Source: a virus. From it: a stretch of DNA of 64,000 nt. The stretch is from positions 62,001-126,000 of IMG/VR virus record IMGVR_UViG_3300025121_000011. One strand, 5' to 3'. This document shows positions 5,116 through 32,109 of the stretch, in pieces; positions within the stretch are counted from its first letter, which is position 1; each line of letters opens with the position of its first letter. The position numbers were made by a program, and so were the translations under genes. The notes beneath the pieces are model-generated. The model was not told the DNA's origin. It made no database searches and saw only the letters and a list, made by a program, of their open reading frames with translations.

Positions 5116-8100
5116 ATGTCAAAAATGTATTTAAATCAAAGCAACTATATTTCCTTGCACAATCACACACAGATCGGCTCCCCACTTGATTCGATTATTG
5201 ATGTGGATTTATTATTTAAGAAAGCAAAGGAATACGATATGCCGGCAGTAGCAATTACTGATCACGGAACAATGACGGCTCATTATGATGCCTGGAAAGC
5301 TAGCCAAAAAACAGGTGTTAAGCTGATTCCAGGAATTGAATCATATTTTGCGGATAGCTTAAGTGATAAGAAATCTTATCACATGGTCTTATTAGCGAAA
5401 AATGAAACTGGGTATAAGAATCTTTTGCATCTTAATTTTTTGAGCTATAAGAATCAACATTCAGGCTATATGGGTAAAAAGATTCCAAGAATCTCATGGG
5501 AACATATCGAAAAATATAATGAAGGAATCATATGCTTGACTGCCTGTTCAAGTGGTCTAATTGCACAGACATTAATCACACAAGGAGATACGGCGAAAGC
5601 GTTAAATCAAATTCACAGATTGAATCATATATTTAAAAATAGACTTAGACTTGAATTACAACCTCACAAATTATACTCTGTAAATAAAAATGGAGGTATA
5701 GTTAGCCAAGTCAATTTAAATGAAGAATTGCTTAAAATATCTCATGATCTTAAAATTCCTTATGTTATTACATCTGATTCGCATTATCTTAGCCCCGAGG
5801 AAGCACATATGCACGATTTAATGCTCGCCATTCGAGATAAAAAAGCATTTGACGATCCCAATAGATTTCGTTATGGTGTGCAGGATATGTATTTAAAAAC
5901 AAAAGAAGAGATTATATCTTTTTTCGGTGCTGATGTAGCTAATTTAGGAATTCAAAATTCTATTGATATTATGAATGCATGTGAAGAACCTTCTTATTTA
6001 AAGCCCCGAGGGCCTATGCTGCCAAAGTTTGATATGAGCGATCAAGAAGACTTTGAGATATTTAAAGATTGGAAACAAATTAACTGTCCAGCGGTAGAAG
6101 ATGATAAAGCATATTTGCGTTTTAAATGTATAGAGGGATTTAAAAATAAGTGTTCTGATTTCGATATTAAAACCCGTCGAGAATATTGGGAACGTGTTAA
6201 GTTAGAACTTGGAGTATTAGAAGAGAAAGATTTTTCATCTTATATGTTGATTGTTTCAGATTATATAAATTGGGCAAAGAAATCGATGCCTGTGGGTCCA
6301 GCACGAGGTTGTTTTATAGCCGGTAGTCAAGTTACATTATATAATGGTTCTAGAAAATCCATTGAAGATGTTTCTATTGGAGAGTTAGTACTATCTCATG
6401 ATGGCACTAGTCAATGTGTTATAAATACCATGATTTATCCAGTAGATGAAGAATTGATTGAACTTGAGTTTGAAAATGGAAAAGTCATTACTTGCACAAA
6501 AGAACATGAATTTTTTACTATCAATAGAGGTTGGGTAAGTGCTGATGAGTTGACAAAAAGCGATGATATTAATCATAGATTATGCAGAAAAAGATACGTT
6601 TGGTATTTTGGGCCGGTATATGATCTTACAGTTGAAAATACACACTCTTATCATGTAGAGGACTTGGCGGTTCATAATTCAGCGGCAGGTTCAATGGTTG
6701 CGTTTTTAACTGATATAACAAGTATAGATCCAATTAAGTATGGATTAATCTTTGAAAGATTTCATAATAATCAAAAGAAGAGTTTTCCAGATATTGATAC
6801 AGATTTTAGTCGTCCAGGTTTAGTAAAAGAATATATTAAAGAAAGATATGGTGAAGATAGAGTGGCTTCTATTTCGAATTGGAGTACACTATCTCCAAAG
6901 GTTATTATTAAAGATATTGCTAGAAGTTTGCGAATTGGTGGTGATAAATCATCTGCTTTCCAAATTTCTGGAAAAATTACAGATTGTATGGGTGATGAAA
7001 AAACTATTGCTAAAGAAAGAAGTGCTAATCCAATTTTTGATGCTTACATGCACGATCATTCTGATTTATGTTTATATGCAGAAAAACTTCAAAATCTTAC
7101 CAGAAATTGGTCGGTTCATGCCGCAGGTATGGTAATCGGAGCAGAGCCTCTATCTAAAATTATTCCACTTAGAATAGAAGACAGAGTGGACCACGGTGAA
7201 GCCTTGGTAGTTACTCAGTGGGAGAAAACTAGATGTGAGGATAATGGTTTGATCAAGATGGATTTATTGGGCTTAAAAACCTTAACAGTAATTGATGAGA
7301 CTTTTAAATTAATTAAAAAAACTGATAATTTAGACTTAACTGTTAAAGATATAGACTTAGATGACTTTAAAGTTTATGATATGATTGGAGAGGGTTCTAC
7401 ATCAGGAGTATTTCAATTAGAATCTTCTCTTACCCCTTTATGCATGAGATTAAAACCTCGCGACGTAGAGGATATATCAATTATTAATGCGGTAGGTAGA
7501 CCATCATGTCAACCAGCAGAAAGACGCAAATATATTGCGAGACGTTTAGGAGAACAGCAGGCTGAATATCTGCATGATAGTACCAAAAGGGCATTGCAAT
7601 CTACTTATGGAGTATTGGTTTATGAAGAGCAAGCCATGTTTTTGGCACAAGACTGTGCCGGCTGGGATCTCAATCAAGCTGATGCATTAAGAAAAATTAG
7701 CAAGTTAAAAGGAAAAGATCCTGATTTAGTTTTAAAGACTGAAACAGCTTTTATAGCCGATTGTATGAGTTATTCCAAAATGTCATATGATATAGCATCA
7801 CAAATCTGGGAACAATTTATTCTGCCTCTCGGAAATTATGCGTTTAATAAAAGTTTGTTATTTTCTACGCCGGTGCGTGTTATAAGAAATTCAGAGGAAA
7901 TGATTCTTCCGATACAAAAAGTTAGATCAGGTGATTTTGTTTATTCAAGAAATGAAGATAATCAAGAAGATTGTTTAATTAAAGTCAAAAACAATCATTA
8001 TCATAATAAATGTTTTGTATACAAAGTTACGCTAGATAGTGGGGAAGAGGTTGTATGCACACGGAATCACAAATTCAGAACAACAACGGGAGAGATGCTT

Positions 8101-9333
8101 CCACTGTGGTTGATTCAAGATCAGAATATGGAAATAGTTGTATCTGTGGAAAAACAGCCAAAAGTTAAAAAAATTATGGCTAAAATAACATCTGTAGAAT
8201 ACGTTGGAGAGCAAGATACTTATGATTTAGAAGTAGAGAACTCTGATCATCAATATTATTTGGCAAATGGTATTTTAACATCTAATTCTCATTCTATTTC
8301 ATATTCTCATATTTCTTTTTATACAGCTTGGTTGAGGTGTCATTATCCCACACAATTTATGTGCGCATTATTAAATTCTGAAGATCCAAATTCAGATAAA
8401 ACTCAAGAATATTTAACTGAATGTGTAAATATGGGTATTTCAGTTTTACCGCCATCTATTAATGCCAAGGGAGATTATACAGTAGTTAAAACTGGACAGA
8501 TTTTAACTGGATTGGGTGCAATGAAAGGAATAGGCGAATCTGCAATTGTAGAGATTCAAAGTTTTAGCCCGTATGATTCAATAGAAGCATTTTTCGCAAA
8601 GACAAGCGGGCGCACAGTTAATAAACGTGTACTGCAAGCTTTAGCTAAATCTGGTGCTTTTGATGAGTATAATATTCCAAGAAAAGTAATATTTGATGAG
8701 TATGCTAAATATAGAACTAAAGTAAATTTATTTATTAATAAATATAAAAAAACATGGATATTAAAAAATAAAAATTTGTTTTCGGTTGGAATAGAAGATG
8801 GTGATAAAATACAAAACGAAATTGATGAAGCTGCTGATAAATATATTGGACAAAATATAGATTCAATAATAAGTCAGATGCCTAAAATATATGACGGAAA
8901 TTGTACAGAGTGGACTAAAAAAGAATTACTGGTTAATGAGCAAGAAGTGCTTGGAAGAACAATTTCTGGTTCCCTACACGAAGTGTTTTCTGGATTTTTT
9001 AGAGGAGAGGGTTCTCTTGCTACAAAATTTGATAAGATTTTAAATCTTCGTCCGAAATCAAGAATAAGGGTGGAAGCCATTGTTAAGTCTAAAGTAAAAG
9101 AATTTAAAATTAAGAATGGTAAGAATATTGGTCAAAAATTTGCCAAATATATTATTGAGGATTCTGCTGGTTCAACTATAACTATGACCGTTTGGGCAGA
9201 TGATTATTCTGTTTTAAAAAGTGTATTAACAGATGGAACGCCTATTAAAGCAATTTGCTCTGTAAATGAATTTATGGATCAAAAAGATCTGGCCTTGGTT
9301 AGTTTAGAAAAAGCTTATGGTAAGGGAGTATAA
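5116..9333 (+). CDS. dnaE: DNA polymerase III alpha subunit (DnaE-type) precursor with two inteins
   Basis: The 1405-residue precursor would splice to about 1137 residues, close to the usual DnaE length of about 1160. The N-terminal PHP domain keeps its metal-binding pattern (HNH at 15-17, ITDHG near 55, SDSH near 220), so a PHP phosphoesterase or proofreading activity is possible. The palm motif PDIDTDF holds the catalytic aspartates (D561 and D563 in the precursor). Inteins interrupt two of the most conserved DnaE motifs: GPxRG|S (intein at 399-521) and AFNK|SHS (intein at 913-1057). The region after intein 2 matches the DnaE fingers, tandem HhH and OB parts. The gene follows the HNH endonuclease by 10 bases. 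It probably encodes the phage replicative polymerase; no clamp or exonuclease gene is visible in this window. Confidence 0.95.
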   Translation: MSKMYLNQSNYISLHNHTQIGSPLDSIIDVDLLFKKAKEYDMPAVAITDHGTMTAHYDAWKASQKTGVKLIPGIESYFADSLSDKKSYHMVLLAKNETGYKNLLHLNFLSYKNQHSGYMGKKIPRISWEHIEKYNEGIICLTACSSGLIAQTLITQGDTAKALNQIHRLNHIFKNRLRLELQPHKLYSVNKNGGIVSQVNLNEELLKISHDLKIPYVITSDSHYLSPEEAHMHDLMLAIRDKKAFDDPNRFRYGVQDMYLKTKEEIISFFGADVANLGIQNSIDIMNACEEPSYLKPRGPMLPKFDMSDQEDFEIFKDWKQINCPAVEDDKAYLRFKCIEGFKNKCSDFDIKTRREYWERVKLELGVLEEKDFSSYMLIVSDYINWAKKSMPVGPARGCFIAGSQVTLYNGSRKSIEDVSIGELVLSHDGTSQCVINTMIYPVDEELIELEFENGKVITCTKEHEFFTINRGWVSADELTKSDDINHRLCRKRYVWYFGPVYDLTVENTHSYHVEDLAVHNSAAGSMVAFLTDITSIDPIKYGLIFERFHNNQKKSFPDIDTDFSRPGLVKEYIKERYGEDRVASISNWSTLSPKVIIKDIARSLRIGGDKSSAFQISGKITDCMGDEKTIAKERSANPIFDAYMHDHSDLCLYAEKLQNLTRNWSVHAAGMVIGAEPLSKIIPLRIEDRVDHGEALVVTQWEKTRCEDNGLIKMDLLGLKTLTVIDETFKLIKKTDNLDLTVKDIDLDDFKVYDMIGEGSTSGVFQLESSLTPLCMRLKPRDVEDISIINAVGRPSCQPAERRKYIARRLGEQQAEYLHDSTKRALQSTYGVLVYEEQAMFLAQDCAGWDLNQADALRKISKLKGKDPDLVLKTETAFIADCMSYSKMSYDIASQIWEQFILPLGNYAFNKSLLFSTPVRVIRNSEEMILPIQKVRSGDFVYSRNEDNQEDCLIKVKNNHYHNKCFVYKVTLDSGEEVVCTRNHKFRTTTGEMLPLWLIQDQNMEIVVSVEKQPKVKKIMAKITSVEYVGEQDTYDLEVENSDHQYYLANGILTSNSHSISYSHISFYTAWLRCHYPTQFMCALLNSEDPNSDKTQEYLTECVNMGISVLPPSINAKGDYTVVKTGQILTGLGAMKGIGESAIVEIQSFSPYDSIEAFFAKTSGRTVNKRVLQALAKSGAFDEYNIPRKVIFDEYAKYRTKVNLFINKYKKTWILKNKNLFSVGIEDGDKIQNEIDEAADKYIGQNIDSIISQMPKIYDGNCTEWTKKELLVNEQEVLGRTISGSLHEVFSGFFRGEGSLATKFDKILNLRPKSRIRVEAIVKSKVKEFKIKNGKNIGQKFAKYIIEDSAGSTITMTVWADDYSVLKSVLTDGTPIKAICSVNEFMDQKDLALVSLEKAYGKGV
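6310..6678 (+). other. DnaE mini-intein 1 (123 aa, no endonuclease)
   Basis: The insert begins with Cys1 (CFIAGSQV) after GPARG and ends VEDLAVHN before extein Ser. It has the block A start, block B TCTKEHEFFT (TxxH-type), block F YDLTVENTHSYHV and block G HN|S. At 123 residues it is near the minimum for cis-splicing and has no room for a homing endonuclease. Removing it restores the canonical DnaE motif GPARG-SAAGS. All splicing residues look intact, so it is probably active. Confidence 0.93.
7852..8286 (+). other. DnaE mini-intein 2 (145 aa, Ser1 and penultimate Ser)
   Basis: The insert lies between AFNK and SHSIS, restoring the invariant DnaE motif AFNKSHS. It starts with Ser (SLLFSTPVRV) rather than Cys and ends ANGILTSN|S, so the residue before the final Asn is Ser instead of the usual His. 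Block B is VCTRNHKFRT and block F is TYDLEVENSDHQYYL. The ANGIL ending recalls the gp41/NrdJ-type phage inteins. No endonuclease is present. It sits three residues downstream of the split-intein site in cyanobacterial DnaE. Splicing is expected to work but may be slower than in His-containing inteins. Confidence 0.9.
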
Positions 9334-9389
9334 TATAAAGTTTAGATGTTATAAACATTATTTATATATTATTAATAAGGAGAAGTAAA

Positions 9390-9902
9390 ATGAAATGTGA
9401 GAAATGTAAGTTTATAGTTCCTACAAATATGCGATTTTGTTTAATGAAAAATATTTGCCCATCATGTGGAGGTAGTTTGTTTTCTAGAGATGATATGAAT
9501 CACATTTCTTTAATGCGAAATAGAATTGGAGGAGAATCTTTTGCTAAAAACTTTGATGAGATTCAGATTTTTGATTTAGCATTATTTATTTATAATGAAA
9601 TTAATTCTGGTTATGGGCGAACAATTTTAGATTCAGAATTAAAGAAATTTAGAGAGCTTACCAGTGCAACATCTGATGTTGCAGTAGAATCTATATTGGG
9701 AATGGATGAAGTTAAGGCCAGCGACATAAGAAAAGAAGTTGAAGCAGAGATAAATGATAAGATTATAGAAAGTTTATCATCGCACAACGAAACGATATAT
9801 GAAGAGGATGATGAAGAAGATGACCGAGTTTCTCGGCTTAAAGCGCAAGCTAAAGATATTAATAAGCATATTTCCGGCACATCAGTTAGACGAGTTGGTT
9901 AA
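9390..9902 (+). CDS. Hypothetical protein with N-terminal zinc ribbon and acidic tail
   Basis: A 170-residue protein with a strong AAGGAG ribosome site. Cysteines in CEKC (3-6) and CPSC (near 24-27) form a probable zinc ribbon. The middle is helical, and the C-terminal third has an acidic run (EEDDEEDD) followed by a basic end. Its stop overlaps the next start by one base, so the two are probably translationally coupled. Its place in the replication cluster suggests a nucleic-acid-related role, but no family is recognised. Confidence 0.7.
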   Translation: MKCEKCKFIVPTNMRFCLMKNICPSCGGSLFSRDDMNHISLMRNRIGGESFAKNFDEIQIFDLALFIYNEINSGYGRTILDSELKKFRELTSATSDVAVESILGMDEVKASDIRKEVEAEINDKIIESLSSHNETIYEEDDEEDDRVSRLKAQAKDINKHISGTSVRRVG

Positions 9903-10201
9903 TGATTAAAATAATTGCAAATCGAGATATAGAATTAAGTAATGAAGAATGGGAGTATTATCTTAAATTGGAAGAGGCTTTTGGTAAAAATGCTTTAATG
10001 GATATGTTCGAAACAAATAAGCAGGGTCATATATTAATGGTAAAGCCTCCAATTAAAAACCCTACTGCACTGATTTTAATCTTCTTTCTTCTTAATGTGC
10101 AATTCAATCAAAAACTTAGAAGTTTAACAGATGGTCTTATAAACATTCGCGATTTAGAAGCAAGAGTAGAAAAAATAGAAAAGAAGTTGAAGGAGTTATA
10201 A
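9902..10201 (+). CDS. Hypothetical protein with C-terminal coiled coil, 99 aa
   Basis: The ATG overlaps the preceding stop (TAATG) and the stop overlaps the next start in the same way, so the three genes form a coupled unit. Residues 55-72 are hydrophobic (ALILIFFLLNVQF) and could be a short membrane or core helix. Residues 75-99 form a charged coiled coil. No family is recognised. Confidence 0.65.
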   Translation: MIKIIANRDIELSNEEWEYYLKLEEAFGKNALMDMFETNKQGHILMVKPPIKNPTALILIFFLLNVQFNQKLRSLTDGLINIRDLEARVEKIEKKLKEL

Positions 10202-10785
10202 TGTCAACTTTTGGTCAAAAAATTGATATTTCTGATTTTACAATAGAAAACATTAATACATCTGAAATTGACAGAGTAATCGCTTGGCTTCCAACCAATG
10301 GAGTGATAGATTTAAACTTAGCAGAACAAGGTCTTATTCATACCTTGAGTGCATTAAATTTTTGTCAAGATAAGGTTTTGATAGTTGATCGTTGGATAGG
10401 TTATTTGGAATCAGAAAGAAATAGAGCATGGTCGCATGCAGCTTTAGATAAATCAAAAGAGGAGGGACACAAGACCATTAAGCTGAAAGAGTGGTACGCA
10501 CAGGCAGATGATGCATATATAGAGGCATGCAATAAGCTTGTATTGGCAAAAGCATGCAAGAGATGGTTTGAGAATAAAGCAAGTTATTTTTCAGCATGGC
10601 ATTATTCATTTAAAACATTCTTAAGGCGAGATTATGAGATTGAGAAACTTAGTAATATTGGGTATAATGTAGATGTAGGTACTCCCCGGCCTACATCTAG
10701 ACCATCTTCTCACAATAGTGATTTTGGTGGTGAATATGACTGGGAATCTGAAGACTCAGAGGAATCTAATGATTCAGATGAATAA
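10201..10785 (+). CDS. Hypothetical replication/recombination accessory protein, acidic tail
   Basis: A 194-residue helical protein: a long helix-rich region with conserved-looking aromatics (KEWYAQADDAY, RWFENKASYFSAWHYSF, FLRRDYEIE) over residues 85-150, then a disordered acidic, serine-rich tail. It is coupled to the upstream gene and lies directly before the SSB-like gene in a cluster with recA and ruvC. That neighbourhood and the long-helix character would fit a recombination mediator of UvsY type, but the similarity is only of layout and I cannot claim homology. Confidence 0.65.
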   Translation: MSTFGQKIDISDFTIENINTSEIDRVIAWLPTNGVIDLNLAEQGLIHTLSALNFCQDKVLIVDRWIGYLESERNRAWSHAALDKSKEEGHKTIKLKEWYAQADDAYIEACNKLVLAKACKRWFENKASYFSAWHYSFKTFLRRDYEIEKLSNIGYNVDVGTPRPTSRPSSHNSDFGGEYDWESEDSEESNDSDE

Positions 10786-10813
10786 CAAGGGGAATATACA
10801 AACAATAACAAAG

Positions 10814-10843
10814 CCCTTCATGTCAAAGATGACACTAATAGGG
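10814..10843 (+). promoter_or_regulatory. Stem-loop in the leader of the SSB-like gene
   Basis: In the 76-base gap before the SSB-like gene, TGTCA/TGACA (10821-10825 with 10830-10834) forms a hairpin around AAGA. An outer CCCT/AGGG pairing (10814-10817 with 10840-10843) encloses it. The ribosome site AGGAG lies just downstream. There is no T-run, so this is not an intrinsic terminator. Translational autocontrol, as known for T4 gp32, is a possible but unproven reading. Confidence 0.35.
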
Positions 10844-10861
10844 TAATTAGGAGAAAAATAT

Positions 10862-11494
10862 ATGTCTAAAATAGTATTTGGCGAAGTAGATTGGAATTCA
10901 TCAGCCGGCGAATCTGGTGCTGGCAAAACACAGTTTATGTATTTAGAAGCTGGAAGACATGTTGTACGAGTTATGGGTAATCCAATTCAGTTTTTTGTAA
11001 ATTGGATTGAAACTGATGCAGGAAAGAAAAAGGTAAATAGTCCCATTTCTTCTCCAGAGTTACTTCAAAGATTAGAAGATGCTGGCTTTAAACGTAAGGC
11101 AAAGTGGATGATTAAGGTTCTTGATCGTGCTGATGGTCAGTTTAAAATCTTAGAAATAGGCTCACAGATATATAATGGGATTCGTCAATTAGTTAATGAC
11201 CCAGAGTGGGGAAAAGCAACCGCTTATGACTTAACTATCACCAGGGGTAAGCCTGGATCTCAACCCTTATATTCAGTAAGTCCTCGTCCAAAAAGTTCTT
11301 TGGATGACTCTTTGAAGAGCGCATTTATGGATTTTAATGATAATCTTAAATTAGATCGTTTGGTTCAGCCTTCTGATCCAAAGTACGTTTTAGAACTTTT
11401 AAAATGGACTAAGGGCTCAGAATCATCAGATTCTGATGTAGGTGAAGAAGATGAATCCGAGAGTGGTGAAGAATTTCCTTTTGATTTTAGCTAG
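10862..11494 (+). CDS. Single-stranded DNA-binding protein (gp32-like phage SSB)
   Basis: This 210-residue protein has an OB-fold-like body: a beta-rich start with the R-V-x-G-N-P-x-Q-F pattern near residues 36-45, and KWMIKVLDRADGQFKILEIG near 79-98. The C-terminal tail is strongly acidic and serine-rich and ends FPFDFS, the layout used by SSBs to recruit partners. It is followed by a strong terminator and flanked by polymerase, resolvase and recA genes. Its job would be to coat single-stranded DNA during replication and recombination. The call rests on architecture, tail and context more than on a diagnostic motif. Confidence 0.75.
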   Translation: MSKIVFGEVDWNSSAGESGAGKTQFMYLEAGRHVVRVMGNPIQFFVNWIETDAGKKKVNSPISSPELLQRLEDAGFKRKAKWMIKVLDRADGQFKILEIGSQIYNGIRQLVNDPEWGKATAYDLTITRGKPGSQPLYSVSPRPKSSLDDSLKSAFMDFNDNLKLDRLVQPSDPKYVLELLKWTKGSESSDSDVGEEDESESGEEFPFDFS

Positions 11495-11513
11495 GCTAAG
11501 ATAAGGTAAAGGT

Positions 11514-11548
11514 AAAAGCCTGTAGAGCGAGAGTTCTACGGGCTTTTT
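11514..11548 (+). terminator. Intrinsic terminator after the SSB-like gene
   Basis: The arms AAAAGCCTGTAGA and TTCTACGGGCTTTT pair with one G-T wobble around a short GCGAGAG loop, and a T-run follows. It lies 20 bases past the stop of the SSB-like gene and just before the resolvase gene. Confidence 0.9.
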
Positions 11549-11563
11549 AAGTATCATTTAGAT

Positions 11564-12124
11564 ATGGAAAGAATACTAGCATTAGATATTAGTTCATCAA
11601 CCATTGGATGGGCTGTTTTAGAGCTTGATGATAATCAAGTGGTAACATTGCCAAAAATGGGATATATTAAGCCGCCAAATAAAGCCAAAGGAAGTTTATC
11701 AAAGCGAATTAATTATGTGTTCGAAGAAATTGAAAAATTAATTTTAGAGGTAAAACCAACTGATGTAGTTGCGGAGGATTACGCCCGTAAGTTTAGTAAG
11801 GGTCGTTCTAGTGCTAATACTATTATTTTGTTAAGTGTATTTAATGAAACTTGTTCTTTAGTTTCTTATAGAATTTTGCATAGAGATGTATTTAAGTATC
11901 CAGTAGTATCTATAAGAGCGGTATTGGGTAGATATTTTGGGTTGAAAATTATCTCTAAGGATGATATTTTTCCTGTTATTCAACAGCATTGTCATAGTTT
12001 TACTCCAGAGAAAAATAAAAATGGTGGAATTAAGAATGAAAGTGGGGATATTGCTGACGCTATTGCAGTTGGAATCACATATTTTCTTAAAGAAAATAAA
12101 GTTATTTCTAGTTGGAGTATCTAA
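11564..12124 (+). CDS. RuvC-like Holliday junction resolvase
   Basis: The 186-residue sequence has the RNase H-fold pattern of RuvC enzymes. The first acidic residue lies in LALDISSSTIGWAV (D7), the second in VVAEDYAR (near E69), and the C-terminal acidic pair in GDIADAIAVG (near residue 167-170). RuvC family proteins cut four-way junctions using two metals held by these acids; large phages use them to debranch DNA before packaging. The length matches bacterial RuvC (about 170). The gene follows the SSB terminator closely, so it has either its own promoter or read-through transcription. The ATG at 11564 has a weak ribosome site. Confidence 0.85.
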   Translation: MERILALDISSSTIGWAVLELDDNQVVTLPKMGYIKPPNKAKGSLSKRINYVFEEIEKLILEVKPTDVVAEDYARKFSKGRSSANTIILLSVFNETCSLVSYRILHRDVFKYPVVSIRAVLGRYFGLKIISKDDIFPVIQQHCHSFTPEKNKNGGIKNESGDIADAIAVGITYFLKENKVISSWSI

Positions 12125-12158
12125 TATAGATAGACAATATATATATAAACTCGGAACA

Positions 12159-12366
12159 ATGGCGTCGACAGAAGTTCTTACTAAAAAGAAATCTGAAACA
12201 TTTGCATTTAATGATGGAATGCAGGCATCTAAAATGTAGAATAATGTTTTCTTAATTTAATAAACGACCTTATTGATGCAGATAAATTACTTAGTTTTTT
12301 TTAGACAAAGAAGATGTAGAAGATATTATTTTTAATTTAGATTTAGATATAATAATTAATATGTGA
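12159..12366 (+). pseudogene. Probable decayed small gene between ruvC-like and groEL
   Basis: The 249-base gap holds three coding-like pieces in successive frames: a 26-codon ORF from ATG 12159, then a piece reading FLNLINDLIDADKLLSFF that stops inside a run of eight T, then LDKEDVEDIIFNLDLDIIIN ending in TGA at 12366. One extra base at the T-run would join the last two pieces. Codon use resembles the neighbours. The middle piece has no start codon of its own. A decayed gene or a sequencing error in the homopolymer are both possible. The distal part may also contain the groEL promoter (TATAAT at 12348). Confidence 0.4.
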
Positions 12367-12372
12367 GGAATT

Positions 12373-14037: not shown

Positions 14038-14047
14038 GGAGATGTAG

Positions 14048-17069: not shown

Positions 17070-18650
17070 ATGAAAGATATACAAATTAAAGATATTAGAA
17101 GCATCTTAAGTCAGGCTAAGACTGCTATGGGACAAATTGAACATGGAAGAGAACTCCCTGTATCATATGTCTTAGATAGATTTATTCAGGCATCATACAA
17201 GCATCCTACGGATCAATTAATAGGTAATATGCGTGATGTTTTAATGAAACGCGCCAATAAGCAAAGTTTTTTTACCGAGCAAGAAATTACTGCATGTTAT
17301 GACAAAATGTATGGGATTTCTGGTGGACAGACAGCTTTTAGAGACGAACTTGGAGATCTATTATTAGTTGATCCGAAATTATCAAAAACAGCTTATTCTT
17401 CATCTTCTAGACGCGGGTCAGATGAGGGTCGAGAAATTAAGGCTGATACAAACGAAGACTTATCAAATGCATTTGCTTCAATTTTTGACCTCGGTAATAA
17501 TAACTCATTTGGTACGTACAATTTACGTGATAAGAAAGAAATAGAAATGTTAGTGGTTGCCAAATTAAATGCAATGGGAATGCAACCAAATGATGTTATT
17601 CTATCAGAATCTAATGAACACTTTGTTTTGGCCACAGCAGTATATAATACAAATAGCTTAAATAAGGTGGCTGTGCATATACCTGTTCAGATTTCTAACG
17701 GAAAAATTCCCGTTCCAACTCAGATGATTTCTGATGGAGCTATGACTGATTTAAATCGTGCCAATCTTTTGGTTCACCTGAAAATGAGTGAAAATCAGAT
17801 AAAAACTTCTAGTCGTCAAGCTTTTTCAGGACAACATGGTTCTAAAGATATAGTTGTCGATCGAGCAGTAACTCCAGCTGCACTTACAGATTTTACTGAT
17901 TTAGAAAATCAATTAGTGGTAGCAGCATCGAATTATACAAAAGAACAAGTTATGATGGCCTCTAGTATGCTTTCTGCGGAATTTAAGGCTGTTGGAGTTG
18001 TTAATCCTCAAATCAAAGTTGCATCATCAGATAATAAAATGATATTATTTAATATATCTATACCAACCATAGCTGGACGAAGCAACATACATGTTCCTGT
18101 AGAGTTTCATAATAAGAAACCGATTTTACCAAGTAGATTTATTACTAGTAATGATAAAAAAGAATCTATTTATGATTTTACAGTTAATAATATTAATAAT
18201 TTTATTAAAAACGCTTCCCACTTAGATTTAGGCGTTACTCAAGCAAGACAAACTGGTGAATTGAGCAAGATGTCTTATCATCAATTGGTAGACAGGATTA
18301 TTGAAGGTGTAGCAACAGAAGATTATAAGTTAGCAGAAGATGCTTTATCTTCTATTCAAGAGCGTTTTGGTGCAACACAACATAAAATAGCTTTGGATAA
18401 GTTTTCAGAACTTCTTAAGGTTTCTTCTACTAAGGGCTCTACCAGAGAGCAACTAGTTAAGGAAGCATTCAAGCGAGGAGATTTGATCACACGGCCCACG
18501 TCTGTTGAGCCTTATTGTCCAAAATTAGGTCTTCCACTAAGTAAAGTAGACTTTGATAAGCATGGGCGGCCATATCCTAAGTATAGAAATAAGACTGCTA
18601 ACAATGATGAAGAAACTTTAATTTCTTCGTCTAGAATTTTATTTACATAA
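17070..18650 (+). CDS. Hypothetical protein, 526 aa, probable structural or assembly protein
   Basis: A long soluble protein with ribosome site AAGGA. It has an alternating helix-rich and beta-rich architecture, including two similar-looking beta segments, VAVHIPVQISNGKIPVPTQM (about 202-221) and SNIHVPVEFHNKKPILPSRF (about 338-357), that suggest an internal duplication. The C-terminus has a proline/cysteine-containing segment (VEPYCPKLGLPL). No catalytic motif or membrane segment is visible. It is followed by a 155-residue protein and a terminator. No family is recognised. Confidence 0.7.
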   Translation: MKDIQIKDIRSILSQAKTAMGQIEHGRELPVSYVLDRFIQASYKHPTDQLIGNMRDVLMKRANKQSFFTEQEITACYDKMYGISGGQTAFRDELGDLLLVDPKLSKTAYSSSSRRGSDEGREIKADTNEDLSNAFASIFDLGNNNSFGTYNLRDKKEIEMLVVAKLNAMGMQPNDVILSESNEHFVLATAVYNTNSLNKVAVHIPVQISNGKIPVPTQMISDGAMTDLNRANLLVHLKMSENQIKTSSRQAFSGQHGSKDIVVDRAVTPAALTDFTDLENQLVVAASNYTKEQVMMASSMLSAEFKAVGVVNPQIKVASSDNKMILFNISIPTIAGRSNIHVPVEFHNKKPILPSRFITSNDKKESIYDFTVNNINNFIKNASHLDLGVTQARQTGELSKMSYHQLVDRIIEGVATEDYKLAEDALSSIQERFGATQHKIALDKFSELLKVSSTKGSTREQLVKEAFKRGDLITRPTSVEPYCPKLGLPLSKVDFDKHGRPYPKYRNKTANNDEETLISSSRILFT

Positions 18651-23349: not shown

Positions 23350-23622
23350 GTGCCAGGAGATCACGATTTTATTGATTTTTTAAATCAAACAAAAGCTGAA
23401 GATGACGACTATACGGATCAGGAAGAATCTGAGGATGAAGAATCTGAGGATAAGTCTGAAGGATTTTCTGTTAATATTCCTTTAAATGGTAGTCCATTAT
23501 ATCCTCGGATATATACGGGAGATTCAGCTAAACCACTTTCCACTGGATTATTTCCAGTATCAGAAGTTGGAGATGATAATATCAATAGTACTTGGAATGG
23601 AATTATGAGTTTTTACGGTTAA
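23350..23622 (+). CDS. Small acidic hypothetical protein
   Basis: About 90 residues, with a highly acidic stretch (EESEDEESEDKSEG) in the first half. GGAG at 23340-23343 sits six bases before GTG 23350, which I take as the start; an in-frame ATG at 23338 overlaps that ribosome site. No family is recognised. A second acidic protein follows, and both precede the terminase. Confidence 0.55.
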   Translation: MPGDHDFIDFLNQTKAEDDDYTDQEESEDEESEDKSEGFSVNIPLNGSPLYPRIYTGDSAKPLSTGLFPVSEVGDDNINSTWNGIMSFYG

Positions 23623-23634
23623 GGAGATAATACA

Positions 23635-24765: not shown

Positions 24766-24774
24766 GGAGAAGAT

Positions 24775-25353
24775 ATGAAGGTATCCAGACAAACAGATTT
24801 GCAAGAAACAAATAAAATTACATGTGATTGGCTGGATCAATTTGCTCGTGGGCTTGCCAAATCTGCAAATTTAGAATATTTAGATCCGGATAAAAAAGCA
24901 ACACTTGAAAATGCTTCTAAGTTTAGAACAATAGAAGCAAAGATGGAAGATATTAAAACTAGAATAGGTTTTGAAAAACTTATGTTTCATAATAAACAAG
25001 AAATAACTGCTACCTCCATAGAATTTAATAATGAAGTTAAAATTGCTAAAATTAAACATACTCCAGAAGATATAGCAGCTATGAAGCAAATTTTAGAGCA
25101 TATTGCAAAAATTATGGAACATGAGCCACATCTTGATGCAACTGCTATTATTAATCGATGTCGACAAGAAGATGGTTTGCGTTTTTTAGACCTCCCTATT
25201 GATGTTAATAAACTCCGTAGGGCAATTGATAAAAAATTATCAAAAGATGAAAGTGCTGAAATCGTAACTTACGTACCACCAGAACCAATTAATTCTGGTG
25301 AGGCAGAAGATACAAATGCAGATTATTATCGACATTCTGAGATCACAACCTAA
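24775..25353 (+). CDS. Hypothetical helical protein preceding terminase
   Basis: A 192-residue mainly alpha-helical protein with AAGGAG ribosome site. It has charged helices over residues 40-150 and a disordered tail. It ends 12 bases before the large terminase gene, the usual place for a small terminase subunit, but it shows no clear helix-turn-helix. It and the protein at 19229 are the two candidates for that role. Confidence 0.6.
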   Translation: MKVSRQTDLQETNKITCDWLDQFARGLAKSANLEYLDPDKKATLENASKFRTIEAKMEDIKTRIGFEKLMFHNKQEITATSIEFNNEVKIAKIKHTPEDIAAMKQILEHIAKIMEHEPHLDATAIINRCRQEDGLRFLDLPIDVNKLRRAIDKKLSKDESAEIVTYVPPEPINSGEAEDTNADYYRHSEITT

Positions 25354-25365
25354 TGTGGGTGATGG

Positions 25366-28239
25366 ATGTCAAAATATCAACAAGATTTAATTAAAAGTGA
25401 AGAAGAATTATTTAGTCAAATACGTTCTAGTTTTTTAGACTATGATCCTGCTCATTTTGTGGAAAACAATTTAACTATTGATGGCCAGTCTTTTAAAATC
25501 ATTGGTAATGGCTGGAAATTTATGGCAGACATTTATCGATATATTGCTCTGCAAGCTACAACCGGCACAGGAAAACCGGTTGTATTATGTAAAGGTCGTC
25601 AGATCGGCGCCACTATGATGGCTGGTGCATTAGATTTATATTTGACAAATAGTGGATTATTTTCTAATCCACCAATTCGAGTTCTACACGCCTTTCCTTC
25701 TTTAGCTATGGTTAAAAAGTTTACTCAAGATAAATTAGAGGGTATGGTTAGAACGGCTAAAGATGATTTTATTAATAAAAATAAATTACATTCTACCAAT
25801 GCAGTAGATAATTTAACTATGAAGCAGTTTAATACTGGCACTATTTGGGTTGATAGTTTGGGTAGAGATGCAGACAGAATAAGAGGTATGACAACAGATG
25901 CTATCTTTTTTGATGAATGTTTTCCATACAACCAAAATATAGAAATAGAAGGTGGAAAAAAAATATTTATAGGCAAAATTTATGATATGTATAAAAATAA
26001 TAAAACTTTGCCAAAAATAAAATCTTTTAATGAATCAAGTCAATTATTTGAATATAAAAGCGTAATAAATGCTTGGAATAGAGGGGAAAAAGAATTAATA
26101 GAAGTAGTCTGTAATAGAAGAAAAATTAAATGTACTGAAAATCATTTATTTTTAACAGATTCTGGATGGAAAAAAGCTAAAGAATTAACATCTAATGATT
26201 TATTGGTTTCATCTTTTGGCGGAGGACAAATGTCTTATGCCCTTGGAGATGAACAACATCAGGTTGTGTTAGGATCTTTTCTCGGAAATGGTCATTTAGA
26301 TAATTATGCAAATAAAAAATATAGATTATCGGTAATTCATTCTGAAAAGCAAACAGCTTATTGCTCTTGGAAAGCATCTCTTTTTGATTCTAAATTAACA
26401 TTAGTTGAAGAAAATAGATATGCAAAAAATAAAGCTATCAAATTCACAACAAAGGGGTTTGGATTATCAAATAAGATTTCCTCTGAAAAAAAATATTGTC
26501 CTCCTTGGATTTTAAAAGATTTAACCGCCATTGGTATTGCCATATGGTATATGGACAAGGGATCTTCAAAATTTTGGAATAATGGTTCTTCTGAAAGCGG
26601 AAGTGGATCTTTATCAACCCATTCTTTTGATGAAAAAACTCAAGAAATGATAGTAGAAAAATTTAAAAATTTAGGAATTCAATGTCATTATAAATCTTAC
26701 AATCATGGCGGTTCTGATTTCTTTTTTATTTACTTTAAGAAAAATGAATTTGATAAATTATGTAAATTAATTGCACCATATATACATCCATCCATAGAAT
26801 ATAAAATTCTTAAAAAGTATAGAAGTGTTAAAAAGCACAACTGGAATGCTAATTATAAGGAATATAGATTTTTAAGTATTAATGATGTACATTATTTAAA
26901 TCAAAAAGAGATCGTTTATGATATAGAAGTTAAAGATAATCATAATTTTGTCGTTACATCTTCTAATCGGGCTAAAAATGCTGGAGGACCATTGGCCCAT
27001 AATTGTCAAGAAATGTATGGTTTAGCTATTGGCAATGCTACTAAAATTCTAACCGCAGCAAAATATGGTCCGGTTGGTAAAGGTGTGCAAGTTTATTTTG
27101 GAACGCCAAAGGAGCGAAGTTCTTTTTTCCATTCCATATGGGAGTTATCAGACCAACGATATTATCATTTGGGATGTACTAACTGCAAGCAAACATTTCC
27201 ATTTTATCTTTCTGGCGATGATAGATGGAAGCACATTTGGGTAGATGGCTTTATTATACAATGCCCACTTTGTGGACATAGGCAACATAAAATAGAAGCA
27301 ATTGAAAATGGAGCATGGGTTCCAACAAAAGATCCAGAAACCGCTAAATATGTTGGATATCATATTAATCAATTATATTTACCACAATTTCCTAAGCAAA
27401 ATATTTTAGATTTAATGCCGGAAAATAATCCTACACAATCAATGAGAGTCTGGAACAACGAAGTAATTGGTGAATTTTATTCTGGTGCTGGTTTACCTTT
27501 AACTAAAGCTGATATTTATGAACACTGTAGAGATGCAGATCGATGCATGGCACGCAGAATAGACTCAAGAGAAAAGAAAACATATCTCGGAGTGGATTGG
27601 GGTGGAAAGGTGGAAAATGATAATATTGATAGAGGTCAATCATTTTCTTGTATTGTTGTATTATCTGCACAACATGATGGAACATTGCTTGTGGAACATA
27701 CACATAAAATTGGTGAACACGGATTTCGTCATAAAATTGCTACTATTAAAGAATGTTATCGTAGATTTGGTATCATACAAGGAGTGTCAGATCATTTTTA
27801 TGGTAATGATGTAGTATCTGATTTACAATTACTTTATCATAGTAAATTTTTAGGAGCACAAGGAAGCGGAAGTTTAGTTAAACCACTTAAATATCGTGAA
27901 GATGAATTAATTATTGGTTATAATAAAGATTTATTAATCGATGAAATTTTTGATAAATTCAGAAAAGGTAAGATTAGATTTCCATGGGGAAGTTATGAGC
28001 ACATAGAATGGCTTATAGATCATTGTACTTCTATGGAAATGGGTGTAAGAATGTCTGGTGGACAACAGATTAAAACTTATAAAAAGGGTAGCATACCAAA
28101 TGATGGATTGATGGCTCTGCTATATGCTTATATAGCTTGGAAATTTGATATCACTCATGGTTTTTCAATTAAACCAGGAATAGATACACAACCAACCATG
28201 ATAAGGCCGTTTTTAGTCCACTTGCCGAGACTTAAATAA
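25366..28239 (+). CDS. terL: Terminase large subunit (GpA-like) precursor with one intein
   Basis: The 957-residue precursor splices to about 595 residues. The ATPase domain has a terminase-type Walker A (KGRQIGAT, 76-83) and Walker B AIFFDE (179-184), with the intein directly after the catalytic Glu. After the intein, CTNC and CPLCGH form the zinc-binding pair with the following GAWVP segment, as in lambda GpA-type terminases. The nuclease domain begins at YLGVDWGG, with later acidic residues in GVSDHFYGND and near IPNDGLMALLYAY. The enzyme cuts concatemeric DNA and drives it through the portal, encoded 9 bases downstream. Block splicing and packaging should fail, because the intein splits the Walker B region. 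Confidence 0.93.
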   Translation: MSKYQQDLIKSEEELFSQIRSSFLDYDPAHFVENNLTIDGQSFKIIGNGWKFMADIYRYIALQATTGTGKPVVLCKGRQIGATMMAGALDLYLTNSGLFSNPPIRVLHAFPSLAMVKKFTQDKLEGMVRTAKDDFINKNKLHSTNAVDNLTMKQFNTGTIWVDSLGRDADRIRGMTTDAIFFDECFPYNQNIEIEGGKKIFIGKIYDMYKNNKTLPKIKSFNESSQLFEYKSVINAWNRGEKELIEVVCNRRKIKCTENHLFLTDSGWKKAKELTSNDLLVSSFGGGQMSYALGDEQHQVVLGSFLGNGHLDNYANKKYRLSVIHSEKQTAYCSWKASLFDSKLTLVEENRYAKNKAIKFTTKGFGLSNKISSEKKYCPPWILKDLTAIGIAIWYMDKGSSKFWNNGSSESGSGSLSTHSFDEKTQEMIVEKFKNLGIQCHYKSYNHGGSDFFFIYFKKNEFDKLCKLIAPYIHPSIEYKILKKYRSVKKHNWNANYKEYRFLSINDVHYLNQKEIVYDIEVKDNHNFVVTSSNRAKNAGGPLAHNCQEMYGLAIGNATKILTAAKYGPVGKGVQVYFGTPKERSSFFHSIWELSDQRYYHLGCTNCKQTFPFYLSGDDRWKHIWVDGFIIQCPLCGHRQHKIEAIENGAWVPTKDPETAKYVGYHINQLYLPQFPKQNILDLMPENNPTQSMRVWNNEVIGEFYSGAGLPLTKADIYEHCRDADRCMARRIDSREKKTYLGVDWGGKVENDNIDRGQSFSCIVVLSAQHDGTLLVEHTHKIGEHGFRHKIATIKECYRRFGIIQGVSDHFYGNDVVSDLQLLYHSKFLGAQGSGSLVKPLKYREDELIIGYNKDLLIDEIFDKFRKGKIRFPWGSYEHIEWLIDHCTSMEMGVRMSGGQQIKTYKKGSIPNDGLMALLYAYIAWKFDITHGFSIKPGIDTQPTMIRPFLVHLPRLK
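25918..27003 (+). mobile_element. TerL intein with LAGLIDADG homing endonuclease (362 aa)
   Basis: Begins Cys1 (CFPYNQNIEIEGG) after FFDE and ends NAGGPLAHN before extein Cys (CQEMYG). Block B is IKCTENHLFLT and block F is VYDIEVKDNHNFVV. Two LAGLIDADG helices are visible: VVLGSFLGNGHL (near precursor 299-310) and IAIWYMDKGSSKF (near 389-401), with an intact acidic residue in the second (D of MDKGS) and Asn in place of Asp in the first. The element can probably splice; whether the endonuclease still cuts is uncertain because of the LGNG first motif. Confidence 0.92.
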
Positions 28240-28248
28240 GGAGATTAA

Positions 28249-31200
28249 ATGAATAGACGAGGAGCGAGAACGCCAAATTCTAATATTTCTAAAGAAAACG
28301 AACCTGTAACTCAAGATACTTTACGTAAATTAAGTGATCTTAGACGAGCAGAGGTGCATCAATCCTTGAGTCGAGAAGAAAAGACGGATGCAGAAAGTAA
28401 TTTTATGCATTCTGCTGTAGCCCATAGTCCTAATTTTAGAAAGACTGCCACTGCAAGTGCTTCAGTTCTTCCAACTACCACGAGCATGTCAGATCGAATG
28501 GCGCCTGATTTATATTCTCCTTTGTTTCAATTGGCGAATTTAAATCTTCCTCGTGATCGTGTTACAATGAATGCGTGGAATAGAATTTTTTATGATACAC
28601 ATCCAATCGTTAGAAATGCAATCAACCTGCATTCATCATATCCTATTTCTAAAATCAATATTACATGTAAAAGTAAAGAGATTCAAGAGTTCTTTTTAGA
28701 AATGGCCGATAGAATAGATTTATATTCTGTTGTGTATGGTGCCTCATTGGAATTTTGGAAAAATGGTGAGTCTTTTCCTTATGCAGAATTAGATAGAAAT
28801 GCTGGTATATGGAAAAGAATCACGATTTTAAATCCTGATTATATTCATGTTAAAAAACCAGCAATAGGCGATCAGACTATAATATCATTAAGGCCAGACG
28901 CTTCTTTACAGCGACTTGTAAACTCCAGCAATCCATCTGATATTCAAATGAAGCATAGAGTACCTAAATATATTTTAGATTATGTTAAAAAAGGACAAAA
29001 TATTCCTTTGGATAATTTAAACATATCGCACCTTAAATTGCTTAGCTCTCCATATGATATTCGTGGAACTTCAATTATAGTATCAGTATATAAAGATTTG
29101 ATGCTTTATGATAAATTGAGGGAATGCTATGATAATCAAACAGAAATTGCAACTTCAGAAGGCTTCAAAAAATACTCAGATGTTATTTATACAGATGATA
29201 ATGGCTGTCATTATTTAAAAGAGAATTTAAAAATTCTTTGTTATAATTCAGAAACAAAAGAGGCTGAATATCATCAACCAACCAATACAATTCTTAAGCC
29301 ATACAATGGAAAAATGTTTCATTTTTCTGGAGAAAAGATTGATGTATGTGTAACTCCAAACCACAGAATGTATGCATCTAAAAAAACAAGTAGAGGCTGG
29401 AACCAATATAAAATTATCAAAGCAGAAGATATGAGTAAAGGATCTTTTTATAGATTTCAAAGCAAAACCGATTTTTCCTCTTCCTGTTTTAAAAATATCA
29501 ACTTTGTTGATATAGGCGATAACACTATTGATATTGATACATATCTAAAATTTGCCGGGTACGTGGTTAGTGAGGGATGCATATATTCCAAATTAAGAGG
29601 AGGTTTGGGATCGATATGGCGCGATAATAAAGTTCTTATTTCTCAGCAACCTACTTCTGATTGTTATGAAGATATAAAATATACTTTTGAAAAGGTAGCC
29701 GATATAATTGGAAGGAAGTTAACTAGCAGTATAGTGATGCAAAAAAGTGGATTTTCATCCACAAATCCGCAGGATATTTGGAAAGCAAGTATCGCAGACA
29801 AAGAACTCACCCTGCATTGTATTGAAGAATTTAGTGTAGATGGCAAGACAGATTCTTATAATAAGAAGATTCCTCGATGGATCTTAAACCTTCCTCCGGA
29901 AAAACAGAAGATAATGCTCGATGCGCTCATAGCTGGTGATGGTTCTGTAGTTCCAAGTAAGTATAAAAATGGAGCAATAGGATATCGTTATAATACAGTA
30001 TCTAGACAACTTGCAGATGATATTTATGAAATGGCCTATAAATGTGGATTCACGCCTAATATAAATATTACAACGCGTCCTGATAGAGATTTTGAAGAAT
30101 ATACTGTTCTATGGTCAGATGGAAATTATGGCGATACTCCATTAGTATATGGCAATCCGAATCACGGTGGAGCAAATATTAATGAAGTTGATTATGATGG
30201 AGACGTCTGGTGCTTTGAAGTACCTACCGGATTATTTGTCACCAGAAGAAATGGTAAAGTAACTATTCAAGGTAATAGTAAGTTTGCTCAAGCTGATGGA
30301 ATGGTAAACCCCTTAACATTAGTTAAGCTTGGAGGCTCTAATGATTATCGTCCAACTCAAGCGGATATTGAAGCATTTAAAATTATATTAGAAGAAGCAC
30401 AATATGATAAAGATTTTAAAATCATTACTCATGATGGGGTCACAATAGAGCGAGCTGGATTCTCTGGTTCTGTATTGGACATAGCGGCAGATATAGAGTT
30501 AATAAATAATAATATTTATACTGGCTTAATGACACCTAAAGCTTTAATGGACCAAGAGGGTGTTTGTATGAGTGTAGATGATAATGAGATTCTAACTGAA
30601 CGTGGATGGCTTTATTATGATGATTTAATTTCTAATGACAAGATTGCTACAGTTGTTCCAGAAACTGGGGAGTTAAAGTTTCATAAGCCGACATTCACTA
30701 CAGATTTTGAATTTACAGGAATGATGTTTAGATTTAAAAATCAAGAAGTAGATATTGAAACTACTGATTTCCATGAAATGTTTCTTTCCAGAAATAATGG
30801 CGTAACCTTTAATAAAGAAAGAGCTTTGAGCATATTTGATATTAATGATATAAATTCTAATAAAGATTTCACTTCTAAACCTGAAGAAAGTGTTAGATTT
30901 AAAACAAGTATAGATTTATGGAAAGGAAAAGACGCACCAGAAGTTATTAAGACTCCTTGCAAAAATGGATATTCTAAAGAAATTTTAATAGGTGATTATT
31001 TGGAATATTTAGGATATTATTTATCAGACAATTATTTAAAATATAAAGATATAAAGTTTGAATTTTTTGCAGAAGATATTTTGTCTGGATACAAAGAAGG
31101 TATTGAAAAACATATACCAGAATCAGTGAAACAATTTTCAAAAGAAAATCTCGAAATACTTTTGAAAGCCTTGGTTTTGAAAAATAGTACAAAAGAGATA

Positions 31201-32109
31201 ACTTGCTGTTTTACGGTTTCAAAACAGTTAGCGGATGATATTCAAGAGATTGCATTTAAATGTAAATATGCTACAAAAATTACTTTAGAAAAAATAGAAA
31301 AAATAGAGAAACAAGTCGATATATACAAAATTATAATCTCTAAGCAAAATGAATTAGAGAAAACCATGCCAATTATAAAACCTACAGATGCTTCCGTTCG
31401 CTGGGTCAACAACTATAGAGTGTTTTGTGTCGAAGTTCCAAATCATGTTTTTGTAACAAGATCTAATGGAAAGATCGCAATACACGGAAATACATATGCG
31501 AGTTCTTCTGTTGGTTTAGAAGTATTAAGACAGCGATATGATATCTTTAGAAATATGCTTAAAAAGTGGTTGGAGCAGAAAATTTTTGCACCAATCTGTG
31601 AAATTCAAGGATTTTTTGAATATGTTGATGGAAAGCAAAGATTGGTTGTTCCTCAAGTAGACTTTAACCATATGAATCTATATGATATGAATGATTACAT
31701 TCAAAATATCTCTAATTTCGTTTCTAACAATCAGGTATCTCTTCAGACTCTGTACCGTAGTCTTGGTTTAAGTAAAGAGGAAGAAGATCGAAGACTTAAG
31801 GAAGAGTTGATTGCAAATGTTATTCGCCAAAAAGAAGAGCAAACTATGAATACTATGCGTCTAGCAGAACTTAGAAACTTGGATGCTGATAGTGCCATTA
31901 CTGAGCCTCCAGATAAAGAACTTCCTGGATTACAAGGTGGAGGTGGTGAAGATATGGGTGGTATACCGGGTGTTGGAGGAGGAGGCGGATTAGATTTAGG
32001 TGGATTACCCGCAATGGGTGGTGGAGAAGCACCGGATCTTAGTTCAGCTTTAGGTGGTGGAGCCCCCGCCGGAGGAGCAGGTCCGGGTGGCGAACCAACT
32101 CCTACATAG
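28249..32109 (+). CDS. Portal protein precursor with two inteins
   Basis: The 1286-residue precursor splices to about 593 residues. Exteins show portal-like features: an N-terminal arm, LYSPLFQLANLNLPRDR, then a helix-rich wing and stem with LISHLKLLSSPYD-type strands (HLKLLSSPYDIRGTS near 263-277) and RYDIFRNMLKKWLEQKIFAPI late in the protein. The C-terminus is a glycine-rich low-complexity tail (about 1220-1286). The position directly after terL supports the call. The portal is the dodecameric ring through which terminase packs DNA. Inteins occupy residues 293-676 and 773-1081, both in the core fold, so the unspliced protein is unlikely to assemble. Confidence 0.85.
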   Translation: MNRRGARTPNSNISKENEPVTQDTLRKLSDLRRAEVHQSLSREEKTDAESNFMHSAVAHSPNFRKTATASASVLPTTTSMSDRMAPDLYSPLFQLANLNLPRDRVTMNAWNRIFYDTHPIVRNAINLHSSYPISKINITCKSKEIQEFFLEMADRIDLYSVVYGASLEFWKNGESFPYAELDRNAGIWKRITILNPDYIHVKKPAIGDQTIISLRPDASLQRLVNSSNPSDIQMKHRVPKYILDYVKKGQNIPLDNLNISHLKLLSSPYDIRGTSIIVSVYKDLMLYDKLRECYDNQTEIATSEGFKKYSDVIYTDDNGCHYLKENLKILCYNSETKEAEYHQPTNTILKPYNGKMFHFSGEKIDVCVTPNHRMYASKKTSRGWNQYKIIKAEDMSKGSFYRFQSKTDFSSSCFKNINFVDIGDNTIDIDTYLKFAGYVVSEGCIYSKLRGGLGSIWRDNKVLISQQPTSDCYEDIKYTFEKVADIIGRKLTSSIVMQKSGFSSTNPQDIWKASIADKELTLHCIEEFSVDGKTDSYNKKIPRWILNLPPEKQKIMLDALIAGDGSVVPSKYKNGAIGYRYNTVSRQLADDIYEMAYKCGFTPNINITTRPDRDFEEYTVLWSDGNYGDTPLVYGNPNHGGANINEVDYDGDVWCFEVPTGLFVTRRNGKVTIQGNSKFAQADGMVNPLTLVKLGGSNDYRPTQADIEAFKIILEEAQYDKDFKIITHDGVTIERAGFSGSVLDIAADIELINNNIYTGLMTPKALMDQEGVCMSVDDNEILTERGWLYYDDLISNDKIATVVPETGELKFHKPTFTTDFEFTGMMFRFKNQEVDIETTDFHEMFLSRNNGVTFNKERALSIFDINDINSNKDFTSKPEESVRFKTSIDLWKGKDAPEVIKTPCKNGYSKEILIGDYLEYLGYYLSDNYLKYKDIKFEFFAEDILSGYKEGIEKHIPESVKQFSKENLEILLKALVLKNSTKEITCCFTVSKQLADDIQEIAFKCKYATKITLEKIEKIEKQVDIYKIIISKQNELEKTMPIIKPTDASVRWVNNYRVFCVEVPNHVFVTRSNGKIAIHGNTYASSSVGLEVLRQRYDIFRNMLKKWLEQKIFAPICEIQGFFEYVDGKQRLVVPQVDFNHMNLYDMNDYIQNISNFVSNNQVSLQTLYRSLGLSKEEEDRRLKEELIANVIRQKEEQTMNTMRLAELRNLDADSAITEPPDKELPGLQGGGGEDMGGIPGVGGGGGLDLGGLPAMGGGEAPDLSSALGGGAPAGGAGPGGEPTPT
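29125..30276 (+). mobile_element. Portal intein A with LAGLIDADG endonuclease (384 aa)
   Basis: Starts Cys1 (CYDNQTEIATSEG) and ends VTRRNGKVTIQGN before extein Ser. Block B is VCVTPNHRMYAS. The C-terminal signature with penultimate Gly instead of His (QGN|S) recurs in many phage inteins of the RRNGK..GN type. LAGLIDADG helices are FAGYVVSEGCIY (near precursor 436-447) and LDALIAGDGSVV (near 557-568), both with intact acidic residues, so the endonuclease may be active. Confidence 0.92.
30565..31491 (+). mobile_element. Portal intein B with degenerate endonuclease (309 aa)
   Basis: Starts Cys1 (CMSVDDNEILTERG) after QEGV and ends VTRSNGKIAIHGN before extein Thr. It is a paralog of intein A: both share SKQLADDI.E.A.KC and the FVTR.NGK..I.GN end. 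The endonuclease region is shorter; the first motif reads LGYYLSDNYL (Gly replaced by Asn) and the second LLKALVLKNST, which has lost the acidic residue and glycine. Splicing motifs persist, so the splicing domain seems kept while the endonuclease decays. Confidence 0.9.

Follow-up and report, generated by a model that had tools for sequence, protein, structure and literature searches.

Twelve inteins in a jumbo phage genome, five of them in its DnaE, TerL and portal genes, and their probable accumulation from a pool in the phage clade

The window analyzed here is a 64,000-base stretch (positions 62001-126000) of the 335,169-base IMG/VR virus record IMGVR_UViG_3300025121_000011, a jumbo phage that encodes DnaE, GroEL, TerL, and portal proteins. 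Three of its open reading frames (ORFs) contain five in-frame inserts, two in DnaE (DnaE-1 and DnaE-2), one in TerL, and two in the portal (portal-1 and portal-2), and by their sequence features all five are inteins (Table 1). We consider it highly probable (about 0.9) that they are part of a set of 12 gathered by homing from a pool present in the phage clade, and that most of the set is now decayed in its endonuclease. A preliminary description of the window had counted five inteins, which is correct for the window and an undercount for the record: the whole record carries 12 in 10 genes (guaB, a CHC2 zinc-finger gene, sbcC, dnaE with two, terL, the portal gene with two, gmd, spoVR, nrdJ, and topA), which sum to 11,190 bp, or 3.3% of its length. 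This census derives from profile searches of the whole record and the reading of selected stretches, and the identity of the interrupted host genes is backed by Pfam matches. Whole-record searches with a portal-type profile, the gmd intein, and LAGLIDADG_2 found no intein beyond these 12, and a weak Intein_splicing match at record position 80141 (window 18141, in ORF 17070-18650; E 0.02) was judged to be due to chance. A weak LAGLIDADG_3 fragment at record positions 289226-289330 (L014) lies in a short frame that contains a stop, and is possibly a dead homing endonuclease.

Four of the five window inserts (DnaE-1, DnaE-2, TerL, and, via LAGLIDADG_3, portal-1) are matched by the Pfam and NCBIfam profiles Intein_splicing, Hint, TIGR01443/TIGR01445, and LAGLIDADG_2/3. 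No Pfam or NCBIfam model could be attributed to portal-2, which is homologous to portal-1 (BLAST, E 2e-13) and has a same-site ortholog that is ~50% identical (L032, L033). The splicing residues, i.e., residue 1, the terminal Asn, and a Cys, Ser, or Thr at position +1, are kept in all 12 inteins. The preliminary description had credited each window intein with block A, B, F, and G features; a block B TxxH is indeed present in all five, but the penultimate His of block G occurs only in DnaE-1 and TerL and is missing in the other three (DnaE-2 ends in TSN and the portal inteins in GN). Outside the window, block B reads STTH in sbcC and ANNH in spoVR, and in topA its His is replaced by Glu. The insertion sites that had been named (GPxRG/S and FNK/SHS in DnaE, the FFDE of Walker B in TerL, and two in the portal; slashes mark junctions) are all placed correctly, and excising each window intein restores a conserved motif.

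With the spliced TerL as query, we found 26 relatives in IMG/VR, most with an uninterrupted TerL and portal. The closest full-size relative (L015/G001, 332,270 bases) is syntenic with the window phage. Its terL and portal genes are 83% identical to those of the window phage, with TerL uninterrupted and the portal uninterrupted across residues 1-543 at 83.5%; its DnaE is 69.9% identical and gap-free; and in the stretches of it that were read, single continuous matches at 67-74% were obtained for each of dnaE, gmd, guaB, the primase-like gene, sbcC, spoVR, and topA. In junction alignments, G001 is empty and gap-free at all 11 shared sites (five in the window and six outside), and its own intein signal is a single Intein_splicing match in a different ribonucleotide reductase gene. 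Intein-free homologs thus lack the segments, with alignments that run gap-free over every site, and the preliminary description stands on this point as it does on Hint-domain similarity. That the inserts are instead domains of the host proteins or assembly chimeras is extremely improbable. Nothing but the large ORFs argues for it, the gap-free sites of G001 rule out host domains, and the Hint and LAGLIDADG profiles match; the same junctions also recur in independent contigs from other metagenomes (L016, L020, L021, L075, L082). The species itself is represented by three independent contigs, which carry identical inteins wherever they cover the sites.

Because the inserts interrupt conserved motifs, working DnaE, TerL, and portal proteins must, as we infer, arise through splicing. 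Each precursor would be translated straight through the insert, the Hint domain would excise itself by way of the Cys or Ser at residue 1, the terminal Asn, and the following Cys, Ser, or Thr, and the flanks would be joined into DnaE, TerL, and portal. By analogy, each interrupted gene may have an essential role. The dependence on efficient splicing that had been claimed for this phage was, if anything, understated, since seven further genes are interrupted (those for IMP dehydrogenase [IMPDH], class II ribonucleotide reductase, topoisomerase I, SbcC, the CHC2 protein, SpoVR, and GDP-mannose dehydratase).

The sites occupied in the window phage are variably filled across the clade, with eight of the 12 holding an orthologous intein in some other member. 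Such orthologs occur at the terL site (G011, G012, and G020; 43-44% identical), the portal-2 site (L032, L033, and G020; ~50-63%), the sbcC site (G019 and G020; 48-52%), the spoVR and nrdJ sites (both in G017; 54 and 49%), and, in several contigs, both dnaE sites (50-66%), while the guaB site is filled in G011 and G012 by a split intein. The other clade contigs, which are mostly fragments, have zero to four C-terminal-block matches each; the four of G017 lie within 67 kb, one in spoVR, one in nrdJ, and two in a PhoH-like gene. A scan of IMG/VR with sbcC gave no confirmed relative despite the existence of orthologs, and absence from scans of this kind therefore carries little weight. At the +1 position of TerL, every filled allele has Cys, and 17 of the 21 empty ones, including G001, have Val; the permissive Cys probably either was brought in by co-conversion together with the intein or identifies alleles that can host one. 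Within the genome, pairwise BLAST finds only portal-1/portal-2 and topA/spoVR to be clearly related as pairs, and with only these two substantial pairs an intragenomic burst of a single intein family is ruled out. A further case of paired homologous inteins, as in the portal, is found in G017, where a PhoH-like ATPase gene (L105 7306-11079) holds two related LAGLIDADG inteins (GSGK/A..VTHN/T and a second).

Most of the 12 inteins lack an endonuclease or have an altered one. It is absent from three (dnaE-1, dnaE-2, and guaB), and catalytic positions are altered in five (terL, portal-2, nrdJ, sbcC, and the CHC2 gene), with orthologs of four of these five keeping them. The TerL intein has GNG and DKG where its ortholog in L038 has GDG and DDG, the nrdJ intein GNG and SSG (GDG at the first motif in L083), and the sbcC intein GNG (GDG in G019 and G020); portal-2 has lost ~55 residues together with motifs that L032 retains, and the CHC2-gene intein, for which there is no ortholog for comparison, has GNG at its second motif. 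Acids are present at both LAGLIDADG motifs in portal-1, gmd, spoVR, and topA, so that portal-1 alone among the window inteins has two motifs with catalytic acids. With the endonuclease absent or its catalytic motifs altered, eight of the 12 inteins are probably unable to home, with splicing presumably kept. We infer that the set was drawn from site-specific inteins that circulate as a pool in the phage clade, that its members would have entered conserved motifs by homing, and that most would afterwards have lost a recognizable functional endonuclease while keeping their splicing residues, as expected at a late stage of the homing cycle.

The identity of the inteins to their orthologs (43-66%), which counts in favor of this account, is similar to or below that of the exteins in the same pairs; no recent donor is therefore present among the sampled contigs. 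Several observations weigh against the account. No donor with an intein closer than its extein was found among these contigs, so that recent transfer is no more than possible. The topA intein, with Glu for the block B His, may splice differently or poorly, and AlphaFold models of portal-2 (predicted local distance difference test [pLDDT] 37) and topA (pLDDT 48, with the Hint part <50) were too low in confidence and were not used. As for topA, splicing may still be possible: judging by its title, a paper by Friedel et al. (2019; cited in PMC7765530) reports that interplay between extein and intein can make up for the block B His. A different explanation of the pattern, in which the inserts are not mere parasites but persist because splicing that is slow or conditional controls the host proteins, as a timing switch for replication and packaging, could draw on the eight inteins that kept splicing residues while losing endonuclease motifs, on sites within catalytic motifs (TerL Walker B, SbcC GSGK, the IMPDH catalytic loop, and TopA GLITYHR), and on the stress-responsive DnaB inteins of Mycobacterium smegmatis as a precedent (PMC6195587). 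However, an essential host protein needs the splicing residues anyway, G001 and most relatives are evidently viable without the inteins, and no conserved regulatory feature was seen, and we regard regulation as improbable.

Both DnaE inteins of the window phage are contiguous, with N- and C-terminal halves (IntN and IntC) in a single ORF and no fractured gene, while the DnaE-2 intein is split in at least eight relatives. In L066 and L071, DnaE-N fused to IntN ends at a stop and is followed by a separate endonuclease-like ORF and then by IntC fused to DnaE-C, which starts anew behind a ribosome-binding-like AAAGGAG. The genes of L118 and L122 are arranged in this way too, and L117 has its endonuclease ORF at this site broken in two. 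The halves are less than ~200 bp apart in L111, L119, and L120, with a remnant of the endonuclease start retained in L119, and 3.5 and 4.6 kb apart in L067 and G011, with other genes between them (TadE-like in L067 and TnpB/Cas12f-like in G011). Such a two-gene DnaE (L067 5900-10331; L092, G011:103001-120000, reverse strand), putatively joined by a split intein, parallels in a phage the split dnaE of cyanobacteria. The DnaE-1 intein is split in L071, apparently split in L118 (where IntC opens its ORF), and contiguous in L111 and L117; the split GuaB intein of G011 and G012 sits at the window phage's site. The separate endonuclease ORFs have only weak matches to the profiles DUF559 and ROS/MUCR, and are at most candidates for EDxHD (Vsr-like) homing endonucleases of the kind known from fractured genes. 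A ROS/MUCR-like C2H2 zinc-finger segment is found in both the LAGLIDADG intein of topA (L013) and the unrelated separate endonuclease of L066, and may be a shared DNA-binding module.

With moderate confidence, we favor the view that the contiguous DnaE-2 inteins of the window phage and, independently, of L114 are former split inteins that were re-joined after deletion of the separate endonuclease gene. The C-halves of split relatives start with ATG or GTG, and an ATG of the window intein (Table 1) sits at that codon. Its IntN tail, at 108 aa versus 101-104 in L115, L121, and L122, has the length of alleles that overlap the endonuclease, and its alternative frame reads GNSCICGKTAKS, resembling the endonuclease start of L118 (GDRCVCGKTSKSS), a likeness that is only suggestive as IntN constrains the overlap. 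Fusion is likely in L114, because its DnaE is 91.7% identical to that of L122, which is split with an endonuclease, and the outgroup L120 is split. It is also possible, though less likely, that the DnaE mini-inteins (and perhaps that of GuaB) are primitively contiguous, and that the split alleles of relatives are derived from them by later insertion of a free-standing endonuclease gene. Both DnaE sites have contiguous and split alleles side by side, the internal Met could have existed before and been co-opted as a start codon, and the window allele is basal in one small tree, all of which speak for this alternative. In the wider dnaE-2 intein tree, however, which has some weakly supported nodes, the contiguous alleles of the window phage and L114 fall at separate positions within the split alleles, the L114/L122 pair lies inside otherwise split lineages, and the endonuclease remnant of L119 and the IntN tail length of the window allele also argue against a primitively contiguous state. 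A first tree of five alleles was ambiguous as to direction, which the added alleles partly resolved; the Npu and gp41-1 outgroup sequences in these trees were entered by hand. If re-fusion did occur, the same sites in the clade would plausibly move cyclically between four states: empty, split with the endonuclease present, split with it lost, and contiguous. A literature search for natural re-fusion of split inteins found nothing relevant, which is a weak negative.

Table 1. Interrupted genes, inteins, and selected codons (window positions; slashes mark splice junctions)
Feature	Position	Strand	Description
DnaE (DNA polymerase III alpha) precursor	5116..9333	+	1405 aa, 1137 aa once both inteins removed; TIGR00594, DNA_pol3_alpha, phrog_405
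DnaE intein 1	6310..6678	+	123 aa contiguous mini-intein; GPARG/C..VHN/SAAGS; block B TKEH; no endonuclease
DnaE intein 2	7852..8286	+	145 aa contiguous mini-intein; Ser1 nucleophile; AFNK/S..TSN/SHSIS; block B TRNH; no endonuclease
Internal ATG (MAKITS) in DnaE intein 2	8176..8178	+	Where IntC of split relatives begins; candidate fossil start codon
TerL precursor	25366..28239	+	957 aa, 595 aa without intein; phrog_675, GpA_ATPase
TerL intein	25918..27003	+	362 aa; FFDE/C..AHN/CQEM, adjoins Walker B; LAGLIDADG_2 with both catalytic acids replaced (GNG, DKG)
TerL intein Asn, first LAGLIDADG catalytic position	26287..26289	+	Asp in ortholog L038
TerL intein Lys, second LAGLIDADG catalytic position	26557..26559	+	Asp in ortholog L038
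Portal precursor	28249..32109	+	1286 aa, 593 aa without both inteins; phrog_16240
Portal intein 1	29125..30276	+	384 aa; KLRE/C..QGN/SKFA; LAGLIDADG_3; both catalytic acids present (SEG, GDG)
Portal intein 2	30565..31491	+	309 aa; QEGV/C..HGN/TYAS; eroded endonuclease, middle and second motif deleted relative to ortholog L032
guaB (IMP dehydrogenase) intein	outside window		GGG/C..VHN/SICKTR; IMPDH catalytic loop; no endonuclease
CHC2 zinc-finger (primase-like) gene intein	outside window		CFG/C..VHN/CNAGK
sbcC intein	outside window		GSGK/C..THN/S
gmd (GDP-mannose dehydratase) intein	outside window		FNHS/C..IAN/SPRRG
spoVR intein	outside window		EGFA/C..NHN/SFFH
nrdJ (class II ribonucleotide reductase) intein	outside window		MFN/C..TGN/CVFAP
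topA (topoisomerase I) intein	outside window		ITYHR/C..AHN/TDSI; site within GLITYHR

The DnaE branch leading to the window phage measures 0.31, about double the 0.13 of its sister G001, which suggests that the intein-laden polymerase is evolving faster than that of G001. A host of the phage was not found; a genome scan with the DnaE-2 intein family turned up a single, distant intein of the DnaE type, in a contig of a Nitrosarchaeum metagenome-assembled genome. Elsewhere in the window, the ORF at 35135-38590 contains a near-exact tandem duplication of ~60 residues (YFYGGAAGDGKAEPVEPSTFTSEDYKKYWMDDKHMHQDKAMGGQDGMFPGDEQVKEQQKRA), and two adjacent large ORFs at 58381-64000 have near-alike N-termini (M[AS]KSNYP[AS]SLDTS[KR]EIP[AP]VRDN) and are probably tandem tail-fiber-like paralogs.

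The 12 inteins of this phage are four times the highest phage count that we found reported, namely three in a crAss-like Zeta phage that also has fourteen introns (PMC7886860), and the syntenic relative has one detected. We found no higher count per phage genome in print, in a search of open-licence papers that leaves record status unproven. At one and the same intein site, the clade also supplies natural alleles that are empty, split, split with an endonuclease, or contiguous, some of them in DnaE proteins 90-92% identical to each other. These alleles make the origin of split inteins, their reversion, and the drivers of intein accumulation testable, and anyone building protein-ligation tools could usefully start from an intein that exists naturally in matched contiguous and split forms.

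Among known systems, mycobacteriophages have inteins in both TerL (including TerL1-e in Walker B) and the portal (Kelley et al., 2016, PMC5050341), and thus resemble the window phage as tailed phages with inteins in these two proteins, one of them in Walker B. The window phage belongs to a different group and differs in having a portal gene with two inteins, a DnaE with two more, and 12 per genome. The crAss-like Zeta/Delta phages likewise have inteins in TerL (two in theirs), but reach at most three inteins, with their fourteen introns, against 12 here (PMC7886860). An Rfam search of the window gave no match. At the dnaE and guaB sites, relatives of the window phage with IntN, an endonuclease gene, and IntC resemble the fractured genes, which combine split inteins with a homing endonuclease gene of its own, that Dassa et al. 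reportedly described in 2009, whereas the window phage itself has contiguous mini-inteins there, so that contiguous and split alleles share the same sites. The guaB split site of the relatives is presumably the IMPDH-1 site, and the cyanobacterial DnaE intein site, which lies before CFNK, is four residues off the window site after FNK. The solved structures nearest to the DnaE-2 intein are of split-type inteins (Npu/consensus DnaE and gp41-1). The Npu DnaE intein (PDB 2KEQ, 4KL5), at this nearby site, is ~33% identical to the DnaE-2 intein, aligned over the start of the C-half, and differs in having Cys where the contiguous DnaE-2 intein has Ser1 and Ser+1. In the jumbo phage MIJ3, a PolB split intein has an endonuclease ORF between the two polymerase parts (PMC6892783), an arrangement shared with the split DnaE of this clade, although the polymerase family and the site differ.

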